From assembly GCA_026392935.1 (NCBI GenBank), contig JAPLBE010000017.1, positions 1-64,000 of the forward strand: a DNA stretch of 64,000 nt, read 5' to 3'. The DNA is from Actinomycetota bacterium (GTDB lineage Bacteria > Actinomycetota > Actinomycetes > Nanopelagicales > Nanopelagicaceae). The notes under the pieces were generated by a model, which worked only from the letters and a program-made list of their open reading frames with translations, did no database searches and was not told the origin of the DNA. The position numbers were made by a program, and so were the translations under genes. This document shows positions 3,442 through 32,803 of the stretch, piece after piece (position 1 is the first letter of the stretch; each line of letters begins with the position of its first letter).

Positions 3442-4124
3442 TTTTTCTCCGCTTGAAGCTGGAAGCCAACTCCTCTGACTGTGCGGATTCCCTCAAAACC
3501 ATCACGGTGCAATTTCTTACGCAAGTATGAAATATATGTATCCACGACTGTGCTCTCAGACTCGAAAGTAATTCCCCAGACTTCATCGAGAAGATAAGTT
3601 TTGGAAAGCACTCTGCCCTTGCTCTCTAGTAGCACGTGAAGTAAACGAAATTCTGTAGGTGACAAATCAATTGGTTCGTCATTAAATGTCACCTGATGAG
3701 TATCAGCATCAAGAGTTATTGGACCGTGCGTGAGAGTCGTGCTTGCTGTCGAGTTGAACTGGGAACGTCTCAGAATTGCTTTAATGCGTAACACGAGTTC
3801 TTCCAGGCCAAATGGTTTAGTGACATAGTCATCAGCGCCAAGTGTCAGACCTCTTGTGATATCAGCGCGATCACCACGCGCACTGAGCATCAGTGCCGGG
3901 GTGTTATCGCCGTTACCTCTGATGCGTTCGATGAATTCAAATCCATCCATCTTGGGCATATTGATATCTACAATCAGTAAATCGGGCTTAACTGTTCGTA
4001 AAAGAGTTAGTGCGTTCATCGCATCGTTGGCGGTGACAGTTTCGAAACCAGCAAGTTTGAGTGCATCACCAAGCAGATCCCGAACTCCGGCTTCGTCATC
4101 AATAATCATAATGAGCTGGCTCAT
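3438..4124 (-). CDS. OmpR/PhoB-family response regulator
   Basis: A 228-aa DNA-binding response regulator. The receiver domain has the acidic pair in IIDDE, the phospho-acceptor Asp in LLIVDINMPK (near residue 52), and the conserved Lys in YVTKPFGLEEL. A C-terminal winged helix follows, with SPTEFRLLHVLL and VVDTYISYLRKKL. The reading frame is open for 18 more codons upstream, but ATG 4124 puts the receiver at the usual distance from the N-terminus. It is the first gene of the operon with the kinase and is divergent from the secreted protein gene, with a 112-bp gap. Target genes cannot be read from the sequence. Confidence 0.9.
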   Translation of the reverse strand: MSQLIMIIDDEAGVRDLLGDALKLAGFETVTANDAMNALTLLRTVKPDLLIVDINMPKMDGFEFIERIRGNGDNTPALMLSARGDRADITRGLTLGADDYVTKPFGLEELVLRIKAILRRSQFNSTASTTLTHGPITLDADTHQVTFNDEPIDLSPTEFRLLHVLLESKGRVLSKTYLLDEVWGITFESESTVVDTYISYLRKKLHRDGFEGIRTVRGVGFQLQAEKK

Positions 4125-4224
4125 GTGCCTACCCTGCCATGCGTAGGCCGCTTTTACTACCAAATTCATGACACGCACACGGAACCTCTATAAGTTTCAC
4201 AGAATATTCACATTGCCACCGACC

Positions 4225-4230
4225 TACACT
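4225..4230 (+). promoter_or_regulatory. -10 box of leaderless secreted-protein gene
   Basis: TACACT, then 6 nt, then ATG 4237. No Shine-Dalgarno is present, as expected for a leaderless message. Confidence 0.55.
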
Positions 4231-4236
4231 AAGCAC

Positions 4237-4695
4237 ATGAGAAGTACGAGGGCCGCACAGGTAGCACTGTTAAGTGTTCTCTTTTCGTCATGCACTTTTG
4301 TAGCTCATGCGGACCCAACTCCATCGCCTTCACCTTTCCCAACAACATCTACAGATTCATTTAAAACTGCAATGGAACAATATAAGAAGGATCGAGAAGC
4401 GTTCAATGCAGCGGTTCGAGATCGAATGCAAAAGATTCGCTTTATCAATCAAACTTTTGACCAATCCGTAAAGAAAGCTCGTCAAGATTCTCGTATTGCT
4501 ATGCAAGCGGCCGTGAAACCAGACCAGAAGTCAGCAATTAACGGCAATTTAAAGACGATTATTGCGACTGCAATTACAGTGAGAGAAGAGGCGCTTCTCG
4601 CACTCGGTGAACCTCCGGAACCGCCAACTGAGCCGCTCCGTCCTGCAAAGAGTGGGCCGATGATGAAAGACAATGGCGGAAAGAAAAATCGTTAA
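4237..4695 (+). CDS. Small secreted protein of unknown function
   Basis: A 152-aa protein with an N-terminal signal peptide: basic MRSTRAAQ, hydrophobic VALLSVLFSSCTFV, and a likely cleavage after AHA near residue 25. A Pro/Ser/Thr-rich linker follows, then a charged, probably helical segment of about 90 residues rich in Lys, Arg, Glu and Gln. A proline-rich tail (EPPEPPTEPLRP) and a basic C-terminus end it. I do not recognise a family. Some periplasmic stress or metal sensors have a similar small helical layout, but that is only an analogy. It is divergent from a two-component operon, so regulation by that system is plausible. ATG 4237 is preferred over the more upstream in-frame ATG because of the signal peptide and the TACACT box. 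Confidence 0.7.
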   Translation: MRSTRAAQVALLSVLFSSCTFVAHADPTPSPSPFPTTSTDSFKTAMEQYKKDREAFNAAVRDRMQKIRFINQTFDQSVKKARQDSRIAMQAAVKPDQKSAINGNLKTIIATAITVREEALLALGEPPEPPTEPLRPAKSGPMMKDNGGKKNR

Positions 4696-4701
4696 AATAT
4701 T

Positions 4702-5043
4702 TTAGTCAGACGTTTTCATCGTGCGTAATGTGTGACGATCATGGCTTTTCTCTCGCTCATGTATTTTTCTAATCTGTAATTCAACATTCTTGATTGCTTC
4801 ATCAAAGGCAGCAAGGTCATTGAATGCGCTAGCTTCTGCGCGAAGCAATGGCCCAGAACCATGAGATGTAATCACCACTTTATGTGAGTTTTTTCCTTGG
4901 CGTGGGTTTGCCTCATGAAGTACTTCTACTTCGATGCGATCAATTGTTACGCTGAATCGTTCCATCGATTGCAATTTTTCTTCAGCGATTGATTTGAAAT
5001 CACTTGCTAATTCTGCGTGGCGAGTATGAATAATTATTTTCAC
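4702..5043 (-). CDS. hpf: Short-form ribosome hibernation factor (HPF/RaiA family)
   Basis: A 113-aa protein of the S30AE/HPF family, which binds the decoding centre of the 30S subunit and silences ribosomes in stationary phase. MKIIIHTRHAELASDFKSIA opens the conserved beta-alpha fold, and the usual IRKIHEREKSH-type basic helix closes it. The start is GTG. Most Actinobacteria carry a long form (~200+ aa) whose extra C-terminal domain dimerises ribosomes; here that domain is absent. The gene is also not between comF and secA, where relatives usually keep it. It therefore probably acts like RaiA or short HPF. Confidence 0.85.
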   Translation of the reverse strand: MKIIIHTRHAELASDFKSIAEEKLQSMERFSVTIDRIEVEVLHEANPRQGKNSHKVVITSHGSGPLLRAEASAFNDLAAFDEAIKNVELQIRKIHEREKSHDRHTLRTMKTSD

Positions 5044-5092
5044 TTCATAAGCATCTCACTTCGTACTGAGAAATGAAAGAGAGCTAGCAGAA

Positions 5093-5479
5093 CTATGAAA
5101 GTGGGAGCAAATACACAATTAGGGTTAACACTGAAGCCAAAGTAAGTGACTGAATCAAAATTGTGAGAGCAGTCTTGCGATCGGCGACAAGTGCCTCTTT
5201 ATCGCTTACCTTGGAAAGTTGACCTAGCTTGCCAAAGTTGAAGGTTCCCATGAATCCATAAGCTAAACAGAACTTTCTACGCGACTGAATCCACCCGATA
5301 GATGCAACAGAAAGTGGAAGGAAAATACTGAGCCTGAGCGAAGGTTCCGCATTTGTTGAGATAAAGCCGATAAGAGTGCTTATCGAGAGAATCAATCCGA
5401 TTAGTGCGACAAGTTGACGTCGCTTTATTTCACCTTTTCCAATGTTGCAACTTCCTGCAACATATTCATGAGTAGACAT
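5093..5479 (-). CDS. Hypothetical small membrane protein
   Basis: A 128-aa protein with three to four hydrophobic segments: about 23-41 (LVALIGLILSISTLIGFIS), about 50-65 (LSIFLPLSVASIGWI) and a C-terminal pair around 100-127. A polar loop between them carries CLAYGFMGTFNFGK. No enzymatic motif is visible and I cannot assign a family. Its start codon directly abuts the stop codon of the 48-aa gene upstream, so the two are probably co-translated. Confidence 0.6.
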   Translation of the reverse strand: MSTHEYVAGSCNIGKGEIKRRQLVALIGLILSISTLIGFISTNAEPSLRLSIFLPLSVASIGWIQSRRKFCLAYGFMGTFNFGKLGQLSKVSDKEALVADRKTALTILIQSLTLASVLTLIVYLLPLS

Positions 5480-27627: not shown

Positions 27628-28584
27628 TTAGAGAGATATTGGCAATTCTGCGGTGGCAGAGAGATAAATCGACTCTTTTACCGCGGCCGCAGGGACATTT
27701 GTGCCATGAGCAACGAAGCAATGTGAGAGCTGTGCGCCCTCTCCCACTCTGACATTGTTGCCAATGATGCAATCGTGAATCACCGCGCCAGCTTCAACGA
27801 CAGTGTCAGCGCCGATTGCAGATCCCCCAGTAATTCGAGCATTGGGTGCAACAACAGCTCCTGGCATTACAACGAAATCCCCTGCTACCAAATCGCGAGA
27901 ACCTTTAAAGAGCGCAGCAGGTGTTCCAACATCGAGCCAATAAGCCTGTTCTTTATACCCAAATACAGCGCGACCAGATTGAACTAGTGCTGGAAATGTT
28001 TCGCGTTCAATGCTTACAACTGCGCCCAATGGAATTTCATCAATGACAGATGGTGAAAATACATAACATCCGGCATTAATTGAGCGCGTGACAGGGTTTT
28101 CCATTTTTTCCAAGAAGGCGGTAACTCGCCCAGAGTCATCAGTAGGCACACATCCGAAGGCGCGAGCATCTTCGACTTCAATAAGATGCAAAGTCGCATC
28201 TGCTTTCTTGGCTATGTGGAAATCTATTTGTGCCAAAATCGAGTGGCGACTCAATACATCCCCGTTAAAAATCACTACTGGCTCATCTTTCCCTAGTAAC
28301 TCTGCTGCATTTCGAATCGCACCACCTGTGCCAAGGGGTTCTTTCTCAACGGCGTAGAGAATTTTTATTCCCCATTTACTACCATCCCCGAAGTAGGGCG
28401 TGAATACGTCAGCTAGGTAAGAGGTGGCTAGAACCAGGGTGTGTATGCCAGCTTTCTTGGCCGCAAGAATTTGATGTTCAGTTACAGGAAGCCCGGCAAC
28501 AGGCAACATTGGTTTTGGTGATTCATTTGTCAATGGCTTCAGACGTGTACCAAAACCGCCGACAAGTAATATCCCTACAGCCAT
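27628..28584 (-). CDS. Sugar-1-phosphate nucleotidylyltransferase (GDP-mannose pyrophosphorylase type)
   Basis: A 318-aa enzyme joining a sugar-1-phosphate to a nucleotide. The signature ILLVGGFGTRLKPLT with KPMLPV is at residues 5-30, VVIFNGDVL carries the metal Asp, and VERETFP-like IERETFPAL follows. The C-terminal part (about 240-318) is a short left-handed beta-helix built of hexapeptides such as AVVAPNARITGGSAIG. Its place near manB and whiB2 suggests mannose-1-P guanylyltransferase (Rv3264c-like), but glucose-1-P thymidylyl or uridylyl activity is not excluded. It overlaps the dapC stop by one base. Confidence 0.87.
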   Translation of the reverse strand: MAVGILLVGGFGTRLKPLTNESPKPMLPVAGLPVTEHQILAAKKAGIHTLVLATSYLADVFTPYFGDGSKWGIKILYAVEKEPLGTGGAIRNAAELLGKDEPVVIFNGDVLSRHSILAQIDFHIAKKADATLHLIEVEDARAFGCVPTDDSGRVTAFLEKMENPVTRSINAGCYVFSPSVIDEIPLGAVVSIERETFPALVQSGRAVFGYKEQAYWLDVGTPAALFKGSRDLVAGDFVVMPGAVVAPNARITGGSAIGADTVVEAGAVIHDCIIGNNVRVGEGAQLSHCFVAHGTNVPAAAVKESIYLSATAELPISL

Positions 28585-29681
28585 TAGTGTGGACTCACTT
28601 TGGAGCGAATACGCGCAGCCGCATCTGCAATGTTTTGATCAGTTGCAGTCATTGCTATTCGAATGTGTTCTCCACCTTTTTCACCATAAAAAATTCCCGG
28701 AGTTGCAATAATTCCGAGCTCTGAAAGCCACGCCACAGAGTCCCATGAGCTTTCCTTGCGCGTTGCCCATATGTACAAGCCAGCCTCTGAATTTTCGATA
28801 GTAAATCCGGCTTCAACGAGTGCAGGTGCAAGAGTTGCGCGTCGCGCGTTGTAACGCGCACGTTGGATTTCTACATGTTTCTCATCTGCAAGTGCGGCAA
28901 TCATCGCCTTCTGCACTGGAAGAGGAACCATCATTCCTGCATGCTTTCGAACTTCTAAAATTCTTGAGATAAGTGCGGGGTCACCAACAATGAAGGCGGC
29001 TCTGTATCCAGCCATTGAAGATCGCTTGGAAAGTGAGAGCACCGCCAAAACATTCTTGTTATCGCCATTGGTGTATTTCATGATTGACGTTGGAGTCTTT
29101 GAGTCACCAAACTCCAGATAACACTCGTCAGAAACAACAACTGAACCATTTTTTCGTGACCAATCAATGGCAGCCTTAAATTCAGATTCAGAATGAACTC
29201 GACCAGTTGGATTTGATGGAGAGTTCACCCATGCTAAATCAGCGTGTGGCCAAGAACTTGCATCAATTGCTACTGGTGTAGCTTGGCTTTGCCCAAGAAG
29301 TGCACCAACTAAATATGTTGGATATGCAATTTCAGGAATAAGAACTTTCTGCGATTCTAGAAATGTAGGTAACCACGCAACAAATTCTTTTGAGCCAATC
29401 AATGGCAGAACTGAAAAATCTCCAGTTGCACCCAAAGTTTTCTCTGCCCACTTGTGTATCGCATCTTTAAGTTCTGGAGTTCCAGCTGTAAGTGGGTAAC
29501 TTGGTGAATTAGCTGATTCGCTTAACGCACTTTGAATGAAATCAGGAGTTGGATCGACGGGCGTTCCAACAGATAAATCAATTGCACCATTTGGATGCGT
29601 TCGAGCTTTATCTGCATAGGGAGCGAGTGCATCCCATGGGAAATCAGGTAGTTTTTGGCGCAAGAGCAGTGACATCTGCAT
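28584..29681 (-). CDS. dapC: Succinyldiaminopimelate transaminase
   Basis: A 365-aa class I aminotransferase of the DapC type, which makes N-succinyl-LL-2-amino-6-ketopimelate in lysine and peptidoglycan synthesis. LPDFPWDALAPYADKA opens the actinobacterial DapC, VNSPSNPTGRV and VVSDECYLEFGD bind PLP, and LSLSKRSSMAGYR holds the PLP lysine. Gene order ferredoxin-dapC is conserved in Actinobacteria. ATG 29681 (or 29675) makes it overlap the ferredoxin gene by 38 bp in another frame; later starts would cut the conserved LPDFPW. Works with DapD, also coded in this window. Confidence 0.92.
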   Translation of the reverse strand: MQMSLLLRQKLPDFPWDALAPYADKARTHPNGAIDLSVGTPVDPTPDFIQSALSESANSPSYPLTAGTPELKDAIHKWAEKTLGATGDFSVLPLIGSKEFVAWLPTFLESQKVLIPEIAYPTYLVGALLGQSQATPVAIDASSWPHADLAWVNSPSNPTGRVHSESEFKAAIDWSRKNGSVVVSDECYLEFGDSKTPTSIMKYTNGDNKNVLAVLSLSKRSSMAGYRAAFIVGDPALISRILEVRKHAGMMVPLPVQKAMIAALADEKHVEIQRARYNARRATLAPALVEAGFTIENSEAGLYIWATRKESSWDSVAWLSELGIIATPGIFYGEKGGEHIRIAMTATDQNIADAAARIRSKVSPH

Positions 29682-29964
29682 GGTCGGAATTTGTCTCTCC
29701 GACCTTTGATGCTCCTCCGGGTGAACCGAGCTCTATGAAAAATTCTGTGTTGATCTTCTTGTAGTTATCCCACTGTCCAGGAACGTCATCTTCGTAATAA
29801 ATAGCTTCAACTGGACAAACAGGTTCGCATGCACCGCAATCAACACATTCATCAGGCTGGATATAAAGCATGCGAGTACCGTCATATATGCAATCAACTG
29901 GGCACTCTTCGCGACAGGACTTGTCCTTTACGTCAACGCAAGGTTCGGCGATTACATATGTCAC
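29644..29964 (-). CDS. fdxA: Ferredoxin with 3Fe-4S and 4Fe-4S clusters
   Basis: A 106-aa seven-iron ferredoxin. CVDVKDKSCREECPVDC gives the first cysteine set, and CVDCGACEPVCPVEA the full 4Fe-4S motif. The tail FFIELGSPGGASKVG is the usual FdxA/FdxC ending. It is a soluble electron carrier, for example for cytochrome P450 or other oxidoreductases. Start GTG 29964 has GGAGG 7 nt upstream. It is divergent from the cysS-like gene and heads the dapC operon. Confidence 0.95.
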   Translation of the reverse strand: MTYVIAEPCVDVKDKSCREECPVDCIYDGTRMLYIQPDECVDCGACEPVCPVEAIYYEDDVPGQWDNYKKINTEFFIELGSPGGASKVGETNSDHADVTALAPKTT

Positions 29965-30033
29965 TTAACGTCCTCCAGAAGGCTTGAAGCGGTAGGACGT
30001 AATTCTAACCATGCAAGAGTCTCCTTGCACGAT

Positions 30034-30039
30034 TACTGT
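30034..30039 (+). promoter_or_regulatory. -10 box of leaderless SH3-CysRS gene
   Basis: TACTGT, 7 nt, then ATG 30047. It supports a start at the SH3-like domain and not at the more upstream ATG 30011. Confidence 0.5.
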
Positions 30040-30046
30040 TGGCCAC

Positions 30047-31621
30047 ATGTCAGCCGAGGAGTTGCGAGCCGCAATAGGCAAGCGAGCGAGCATTCGACTT
30101 CGAGATAACGAGGGCGGATTCAGGGATATTGTCGGTGTATTACAGAGTGAGACTAGCTTGATCAACCGCCGTGGAGATTTAGTTGAATTCCGCCTCGACG
30201 ATATCGCTGTATATCGAATCATTCCAGTTTTTAATCGACGAGATGCTCAGCCTTCGACACTGTCGATGTATGACACCCGCACTCGCGATCTCAAGGAAAT
30301 CGTTGATCGCGAAGGACTTGTCACTATCTACTGCTGTGGTCCCACCGTGTATCGGGATGCACATGTAGGAAATCTGCGAACTTTCCTGCTCGCTGATTTG
30401 ATTTCTCGCACATTGCAACTGCAAGGCCTTGATGTAGATCTGATTCAGAACATTACAGATGTTGGACATATGGCGGATGATTTCCAAGGAGAAGATAAGT
30501 TACTTGCTGAAGCTAAGCGGACCAAAATAGACCCCTTTGCAATTGCACGTGAGTTTGAAGCGCGTTTTCATGAGGATTTAGCGTTGCTAAATGTGCAACC
30601 AGCAAGAGCATATCCACGTGCATCAGAGAATATGCCCTCAATGCTCGAATCAATTCAGAAATTGATTGATACAAAATCTGCCTACGTTGGAAGTGACGGT
30701 TCTGTCTATTTCGATGCCACATCATTTGAAAGTTACGGCGCAATTAGTGGAAACAAACTAGAAGCGCTTAAACCTGGACACCGATATGAATACACCGATG
30801 AAGATGGGAAAAAGTTTCATGCTGATTGGGCTTTATGGAAACTCGCCGGCGCTCGTACACAAATGATTTGGGACTCACCATGGGGATCAGGATTTCCTGG
30901 GTGGCATATCGAATGCAGCGCGATGTCTATCGATTTGCTGGACGCTTACGTAGATGTTCACGTCGGTGGTATTGATTTGCGATTCCCGCATCACGAGAAC
31001 GAGCGCGCACAATCAAATTCGCTCACCCACACAGAAGTTGTACAAACCTGGGTACATGGCGAACACCTCTTATTTGAGGGCAAGAAAATGTCAAAAAGTG
31101 CTGGAAATGTTCTGCTGCTTAAGGATCTCTCTGCACGTGGGATCGATCCGCTTGCACTTCGCTTAGTTTTTCTTGAAAATCGATATCGATCCCAAATGGA
31201 TCTCACATGGGCAGCTCTCGAGGCAGCACATGCGACTTTACGCCGCTGGAAAAATGCAATGGCCCAATGGGGAGAATCTATGGATATCAAAATAGATTCA
31301 GAAGTATCACAAGCTTTCGCGCAAGACCTTGATACGCCACGGGCAATACTGCGTTTACGTGCACTTGAGAAAGATCAAACTATTGGGAACCAAGATAAGC
31401 GTGCGATTTTTCTCTTTGCAGACCAAGTACTGGGTTTAGATCTTTCAGAAATTCCAATCAGTAAACCTGTAACAGATGAAATACAGCAGCTTTTAGATCA
31501 AAGAGTTGAAGCCAGAAGTTCCAAGAATTGGGCGCAGAGTGATGCGCTTCGAGATCAACTGGCTGACTTAGGGATTGAAATTAGCGATGGCGCTACTGGG
31601 CAAACTTGGCGTTGGAAATAA
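30047..31621 (+). CDS. cysS: Cysteinyl-tRNA synthetase-like protein with N-terminal SH3-like domain
   Basis: A 524-aa protein. Residues 1-~61 (MSAEELRAAIGKRASIRL ... LDDIAVYRIIP) look like the small SH3-type barrel found at the N-terminus of Rv0428c-like GNAT proteins. A complete class I synthetase follows from about 74. Visible parts are CCGPTVYRDAHVG (first zinc Cys and the HIGH-like site), NITDVGH, GWHIECSAMS (zinc Cys), PHHENERAQS (zinc His/Glu) and GKKMSKS. The C-terminus ends GQTWRWK as CysRS do. It charges tRNA-Cys if active. Without the extra domain it would have normal CysRS length (~450). ATG 30047 is chosen over ATG 30011 because of TACTGT 7 nt upstream. Confidence 0.85.
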   Translation: MSAEELRAAIGKRASIRLRDNEGGFRDIVGVLQSETSLINRRGDLVEFRLDDIAVYRIIPVFNRRDAQPSTLSMYDTRTRDLKEIVDREGLVTIYCCGPTVYRDAHVGNLRTFLLADLISRTLQLQGLDVDLIQNITDVGHMADDFQGEDKLLAEAKRTKIDPFAIAREFEARFHEDLALLNVQPARAYPRASENMPSMLESIQKLIDTKSAYVGSDGSVYFDATSFESYGAISGNKLEALKPGHRYEYTDEDGKKFHADWALWKLAGARTQMIWDSPWGSGFPGWHIECSAMSIDLLDAYVDVHVGGIDLRFPHHENERAQSNSLTHTEVVQTWVHGEHLLFEGKKMSKSAGNVLLLKDLSARGIDPLALRLVFLENRYRSQMDLTWAALEAAHATLRRWKNAMAQWGESMDIKIDSEVSQAFAQDLDTPRAILRLRALEKDQTIGNQDKRAIFLFADQVLGLDLSEIPISKPVTDEIQQLLDQRVEARSSKNWAQSDALRDQLADLGIEISDGATGQTWRWK

Positions 31622-31622
31622 T

Positions 31623-31934
31623 CTAGATTTTTCGTAGTACTGCAAGAATGCCAAGTGAGAATCCTACGAGAAGCAGCGCACTGCCTGCGTTATCTCCCTG
31701 AATAAGCAACTCTTGGCCAACTCCGTAAGACCCAGCTCTCACAATAACAATAAGCCATCCAAGTAGGGCCCACAGCTTGTAACGCTTCTTGCCGTAGTAG
31801 CGACCTACCCACCAAATTCCTGTGAAGGTTGTGATTAGTGAAACCATTAATCCAAACGGTGGCAGAGTTTGATGAATCAATGTCACACCAGTTGCAGTGA
31901 GTGCTCCAAAGATCAGTGATAGTAGCGACTTCAT
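31623..31934 (-). CDS. Small membrane protein beside mshB (DUF6113-like)
   Basis: A 103-aa protein of about four transmembrane helices (roughly 1-20, 27-47, 52-70, 80-100) with a basic loop [10 protein letters not shown]. Actinobacteria often carry a small membrane protein of the DUF6113 family directly after mshB, and this fits by size and position; I am not certain of the family. It overlaps mshB by 4 bp (ATGA) and is convergent with the synthetase gene, with one base between the stops. Function unknown. Confidence 0.65.
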
Positions 31935-32803
31935 GACTGTGTAGAAATTCCAGCGAAGAGATCGCTTTCAAATCCTTGCTCGGTAAATGGTTCAGCCTTC
32001 TCGCCTTTAACTAAGGTGTAGTACTCATTACCCCAAATTTCGAGTCCCAAATTATTGGAGAGCGCGAAGAATGGGCCATCAACTGCTATCTGAGTGCCAT
32101 GGGCTCTCATTGCATCCATTTTCTGATCAACATAATCTGCACCGTCAATGAGTGCGTGCACAAATGAATCATCTTTTGCAAAAGGTAAATCTTCAGCACT
32201 TTCTGCCCCCATAAAATCAGAGCCCAGCGCTTTCATCTTGTCGATGCCATCTTGTATCACTGACTTAGGCATGACATTCCAATAAATCTTGGGAATATCC
32301 CACTCTGATTGCTCAGCAGCAGCCATGGCTACTCGATGAGCTTGAATGTGATCCGGATGTCCGTATCCCCCGAATTCGTCGTAAGTAATCAACACATGCG
32401 GTTTTATTTCATCGATTACATCCGCGAGAGAGTGCACAACTTCTGAAAAATCTGCTTTCCAAAAACAATCGCTACGATCATTTTGGGGAGTTCCCATCAT
32501 TCCGCTGTCGCGATATTTCTTTTTTCCTTCACCTAAGAAACGATGGTCGCTCACGCCAAGTGCCTTCATGGCGGCTGCAAGCTCGACTACACGATGTTCA
32601 CCAAGTGAATCATTTTCAGTTGCGGCGAGATGAACTAACTCTGGAATAAGTACTTCACCTTCTTCGCCGCGAGTACATGTCACAAGCGTCACGTGCGCAC
32701 CGAGTGCGGCATAGAGAGCCATTGTGCTTCCATTATTTATGGTCTCATCATCAGGATGAGCATGCACAAGCAAGAGGCGAAAGCTCTGATAGCTAGCGCG
32801 CAT
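31931..32803 (-). CDS. mshB: Mycothiol biosynthesis deacetylase MshB (PIG-L family)
   Basis: A 290-aa zinc enzyme that removes the acetyl group from GlcNAc-inositol in mycothiol synthesis. The metal site is in [13 protein letters not shown] (His, Asp-Asp, near residues 13-18) and in [22 protein letters not shown] and the [13 protein letters not shown] block are typical of MshB and not of the related mycothiol conjugate amidase, though Mca cannot be fully excluded. It overlaps the moeZ stop by one base (TAATG). The presence of mshB argues for mycothiol as the thiol buffer in this organism. Confidence 0.9.

Follow-up and report, generated by a model that had tools for sequence, protein, structure and literature searches.

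An SH3-like barrel joined to a second cysteinyl-tRNA synthetase in freshwater acI actinobacteria: a probable operon fusion following loss of an acetyltransferase domain

In the window, i.e., the whole stretch of 64,000 nucleotides that was analysed, an open reading frame on the forward strand runs from 30011 to 31621, with its second ATG at 30047. From this ATG, the gene (30047..31621) encodes a protein of 524 amino acids in which an SH3-like barrel precedes a second cysteinyl-tRNA synthetase (CysRS2). Upstream lie the divergently oriented ferredoxin gene fdxA (29644..29964, reverse strand; NF045480) and the succinyldiaminopimelate transaminase gene dapC (28584..29681, reverse strand; TIGR03539). 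Downstream, both on the reverse strand, are a gene for a small conserved hydrophobic protein (31623..31934) and mshB, encoding a deacetylase of mycothiol synthesis (31931..32803; TIGR03445). The host genome (G000) is actinobacterial, with a size of 1.35 Mb in 22 contigs, and its named relatives include strain IMCC25003 and MAGs of Candidatus Planktophila. Complete genomes, among them that of the cultured strain IMCC25003 (CP015603), carry the fused gene as well, which excludes an assembly artefact. The question of a second, ordinary cysS, raised in a preliminary description of this DNA, was answered within the same genome: the housekeeping cysS is a separate gene (C17:26767, 471 aa), the product of which is 37% identical to CysRS2.

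Residues 73-524 of the fused protein constitute a complete CysRS, scoring 387 bits against TIGR00435 (cysS; cut-off 340). The class I catalytic domain (30308..31228, forward strand; PF01406, 309 bits) contains HVGN, KMSKS, and all four zinc ligands (equivalents of C28, C209, H234, and E238), and the C-terminal anticodon-binding domain (31472..31612, forward strand; PF23493 CysS_C, 43.1 bits versus a cut-off of 23) has the equivalents of R427, W432, D436, and R439. The comparison sequence is E. coli CysRS, which agrees with the 1li5 alignment. The H and G of HVGN, the K, M, K, and S of KMSKS, and the zinc ligands were kept in 104 of 104 CysRS2 copies, and the equivalents of R427, D436, and R439 in 100 of the 101 untruncated copies. 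CysRS2 has the full catalytic, zinc, and anticodon-binding parts of known bacterial enzymes (TIGR00435; 1u0b, 3sp1, 6ujd), its best fold match being 1u0b, E. coli CysRS with tRNA-Cys, but differs from the usual CysRS in being a second copy with an N-terminal barrel. After NITD, CysRS2 carries an insertion that the Borrelia and Elizabethkingia enzymes also have; it may therefore have arisen as a xenolog and not by recent duplication. In one relative (L066 in G001, approximately 3841-5158), cysS2 is frameshifted or has a small deletion, reflecting either a pseudogene or a sequencing error.

Judging from these residues, charging of tRNA-Cys by CysRS2 would be the simplest reading. The complete genome G156 has one tRNA-Cys (GCA); no special second tRNA-Cys was found there, and no tRNA-Sec-like gene was reported. 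CysRS2 is carried by 118 of the 135 genus genomes and is dispensable, since seven genomes that are at least 92% complete do not have it. In a 39-genome survey, a housekeeping-type CysRS was present in all 17 genus members, and no CysRS at the housekeeping score was detected in G045 (outside the family, 94% complete) or G059 (80% complete). Ordinary tRNA charging may not hold everywhere, because one fused clade of genus g34 (G254, G260, and G261; loci L138, L147, and L154) retains the SH3 barrel but has lost the anticodon-binding domain entirely, the proteins stopping near position 396 of 451. In this loss, the clade resembles CysRS* of Desulfobacterales, a CysRS paralog without an anticodon-binding domain that works with SelC* (PMC9437257), although CysRS* has no SH3 barrel.

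This truncated clade could also be read as a sign that CysRS2 is no tRNA enzyme at all but a cysteine ligase of low-molecular-weight thiol synthesis similar to MshC, the mycothiol cysteine ligase. MshC is a CysRS paralog with a catalytic domain like that of CysRS2, mshB adjoins the locus in the family, and G000 also makes mycothiol enzymes. However, MshC-type genes exist separately, including an MshC-sized gene on another part of the assembly (C9, 416 aa), and MshC does not have the C-terminal domain that is present in the window protein with conserved anticodon residues. Moreover, CysRS2 scores 247 bits against the MshC model (TIGR03447), below its cut-off of 485, compared with 387 against 340 for cysS. 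We therefore regard a thiol-synthesis role as highly improbable.

Ahead of MYDTRTRDL (30266), the extension counted from 30047 comprises 73 residues, of which about 60 form the barrel and 12-13 the linker; the preliminary description gave approximately 61 extra residues. The barrel (30071..30217, forward strand; residues ~9-57) was assigned to the SH3_Rv0428c type from PF24551, AlphaFold2, and fold comparison. The linker (30227..30262, forward strand; residues ~61-72) has a PVFNRRD-type motif common to fused genes of the window genus. By itself, the window SH3 scores 15.1 bits against PF24551 (E 0.025), below the curated Pfam cut-off of 27 bits, whereas 59 of 68 homologous SH3 rows match at E <= 0.1, the best at 1.1e-8. 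Thus, the Rv0428c-type assignment proposed earlier holds through these matching intermediates, on which homology rests, and the window barrel, which falls short of the profile when taken alone, is best called a divergent relative. AlphaFold2 modelling of the whole fused protein (mean pLDDT 89.3, pTM 0.81) gave an SH3-like fold, a helix and a five-stranded barrel at a pLDDT of ~90, followed by a weak linker (residues 61-70, pLDDT 62) and a normal CysRS part; folded alone, the barrel reached a pLDDT of 87.7. A search of the SH3 profile against PDB sequences returned no significant solved relative. By structure comparison, the neighbours were GerQ (Z 8.6), Hfq of Synechocystis (3hfo; Z 8.1, rmsd 1.2 Å over 54 residues), an archaeal Sm protein (Z 8.1), RimP of M. 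smegmatis (Z 8.0, 1.6 Å over 60), and GatD (Z 7.7), but Z values near 8 are often seen with small barrels and are no evidence of function. The likeness to Hfq/Sm proteins and the RimP C-terminal domain (Z ~8) is that of a predicted small beta-barrel with an N-terminal helix, without a significant sequence match.

Translation appears to start at the barrel. A -10 box, TACTGT, lies at 30034..30039 on the forward strand, exactly 7 nt before ATG 30047 as previously described, and would form a leaderless promoter divergent from fdxA. In homologous loci, TANNNT precedes the in-frame SH3 start in 59 of 99 cases, always with a spacing of 6 or 7 nt, against a background of 2.2% per start codon inside cysS2. 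This recurrence across relatives makes a leaderless mRNA beginning at 30047 likely. Of seven genus fusions, only two still have an ATG at the CysRS boundary (ATC, ATT, or CTC in the other five), and in G022 and G025 the 20 codons before this boundary include no ATG, GTG, or TTG. Together, the spacing of the -10 box and the loss of the boundary ATG argue for a start at the SH3 domain, in agreement with the earlier proposal.

The same barrel is found at the N-terminus of Rv0428c/Cg3035-type GNAT proteins (PF24551 plus PF24553), from which the window protein differs in having no acetyltransferase part and in the joining of the barrel to CysRS. Across the genus, the locus (INTERMEDIATES) has the order dapC-fdxA (reverse), an SH3-bearing gene plus cysS2 (forward), and the small hydrophobic gene plus mshB (reverse). 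Five states were distinguished: (A) an SH3-GNAT gene of ~315-340 aa followed directly by cysS2; (B) an SH3 mini-gene (66-73 aa in the window genus) whose stop touches or overlaps the start of cysS2; (C) SH3 and cysS2 united in one reading frame; (D) an SH3 mini-gene without cysS2; and (E) cysS2 without SH3. The GNAT catalytic domain absent from the window protein is present in same-genus relatives, where it scores 67.8 bits against PF24553 (Rv0428c_C), above the cut-off. In 26 genus genomes, the fusion extends over nearly the whole query, and genera g27, g34, and g36 have fused genes too. The linkers differ by group, with PVFNRRD in g1, VPSxxxxTG in g34, LPR... in g36, and VPPKKEVMDNTTN in g27. 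Outside the family, SH3-GNAT genes or SH3 mini-genes likewise lie directly upstream of cysS2, and no fusion was seen in the 24 cysS2 loci inspected there. In three loci outside the family (L048, L039, and L049 in G046, G053, and G058), the SH3 mini-gene overlaps a different downstream gene instead of cysS2. The large-genome cysS2 loci of family f17 (L315, L316, and L319 in G405, G556, and G563) have no dapC or fdxA detected in the stretch examined, and their cysS2 possibly moved by transfer.

State A would be ancestral, for the following reasons: (i) SH3-GNAT homologs occupy the same fdxA locus in other families, and (ii) regain of a GNAT domain between SH3 and cysS2 seems unlikely. The statement in the preliminary description that such GNAT genes lie beside fdxA/dapC in other actinobacteria was sound. 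A second group of Cg3035-like genes with a ferredoxin-gene neighbourhood, as at the window locus, has also been described (PMC3827942). Direct replacement of the GNAT catalytic domain by an incoming CysRS, as the preliminary description proposed, would account for the final domain arrangement, but a separate cysS2 follows intact SH3-GNAT genes within the same genus as well as in other families, making such a replacement extremely unlikely. The direct precedence of SH3-GNAT over a separate cysS2 in same-genus relatives points instead to GNAT deletion and fusion to the next gene.

How often this happened was addressed with phylogenies. In a four-gene tree of the window genus, the fused genes formed one clade (98/99), and the mini-genes together with G024 formed another (100/100); the hypothesis that one loss of GNAT accounts for states B, C, and D in the genus was rejected (p-AU 5e-5), the group having been named after the tree was seen. 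The family tree (97 genomes) contained eight maximal GNAT-less clades within the family and five fused clades. A single origin was rejected for all fused genes (p-AU 1.5e-61), for the two g34 fused groups (7e-6), and for the g1 and g36 fused genes (4e-37). Thus, the family has seen about eight deletions of the GNAT domain, and fused genes occur in five clades. Support is weak for the g36 clade (32) and stands at 78 for one of the eight clades without GNAT, and some branches near the tree base are weak; how many GNAT losses are counted depends on weak branches of this kind. Whole-locus transfer between lineages could alter the counts of both losses and fusions.

The barrel is under purifying selection: its dN/dS is 0.02-0.25 between fused genes and, for those pairs of mini-genes in which dS was usable, 0.06-0.22. 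In nine sister g1 genomes (L282-L290), an SH3 mini-gene of 67-73 aa occupies the same place with neither GNAT nor CysRS2 beside it, and its dN/dS remains 0.06-0.24; genus g31, for its part, keeps cysS2 without any SH3. Therefore, neither part strictly needs the other, and the persistence of the barrel without GNAT, and in the nine genomes without CysRS2, means that SH3 has a function of its own. The earlier description of a new appendix for CysRS was thus too narrow. The selection data also bear on whether SH3 is a passive leftover, retained only because it contains the leaderless start and couples translation to cysS2. The conserved -10 box, whose position fits a leaderless start, and the overlap or abutment of the SH3 stop with the cysS2 start in mini-gene genomes would suit such a role, which we nevertheless judge very unlikely because of the low amino-acid-level dN/dS (0.02-0.25) and the retention of the mini-gene where cysS2 is gone.

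The barrel may bind protein or RNA. Appended domains help other synthetases by binding or presenting tRNA, and SH3 could be an appendix of this kind for CysRS2. The five fused clades, the clade that lost its anticodon-binding domain but kept SH3, and the fold likeness to RNA-binding Sm/Hfq proteins and to the N-terminal portion of GatD, from the tRNA-dependent amidotransferase GatDE, all speak for this reading. We nonetheless consider it rather unlikely, as SH3 alone is selected in the nine genomes without CysRS2, genus g31 has CysRS2 and no SH3, and SH3 is likewise found together with GNAT or next to other genes. Distinctly less likely still, the Rv0428c-type SH3 might be an autonomous Sm/RimP-like microprotein acting on RNA or the translation apparatus in actinobacteria, repeatedly captured by CysRS2, that would partly supply the RNA contacts of the synthetase; if so, the barrel could stand in for the anticodon-binding domain in the G254/G260/G261 clade.

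We consider it probable that the window gene encodes an operon-fusion protein, arising from GNAT deletion and the joining of SH3 to cysS2, with a tRNA-Cys-charging product and the barrel as a binding module. The ancestor would have had an SH3-GNAT gene of the Rv0428c/Cg3035 type divergent from fdxA, with cysS2 directly after it. Deletion of the GNAT catalytic part left behind the promoter, leaderless start, and SH3 barrel, and comparison shows that in the window lineage, the leftover reading frame then joined cysS2 in frame. As the catalytic, zinc, and anticodon residues are all intact, the fused protein is most likely an enzyme that activates cysteine and charges tRNA-Cys in addition to the housekeeping CysRS. 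The barrel would serve as a small module binding a conserved partner of its own, and the fusion would tie the SH3 function to CysRS2 one-to-one. This explanation is supported by the family synteny (dapC-fdxA / SH3...-cysS2 / mshB), which shows all intermediate states; it is weakened by the missing anticodon domain in the G254/G260/G261 clade, the dispensability of CysRS2, and the weak basal branches.

Literature searches, covering open-licence papers only, returned no paper on a CysRS-SH3 fusion. The five fused clades and their living intermediates provide an unusually clear record of a domain freed from one enzyme and captured by another, and they draw attention to a small, unstudied protein that is under selection in bacteria ranking among the most abundant in fresh water. 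This record suggests that in freshwater acI actinobacteria, the leftover domain and the fusion were both kept because they are useful. As acI-type cells have been reported to be without assimilatory sulfate reduction (PMC5301498), the role of a second, dispensable CysRS in such cells becomes a testable question. Four public MAG contigs titled Bifidobacterium breve (L256, L266, L278, and L279) have the acI-type locus, and their names look wrong.
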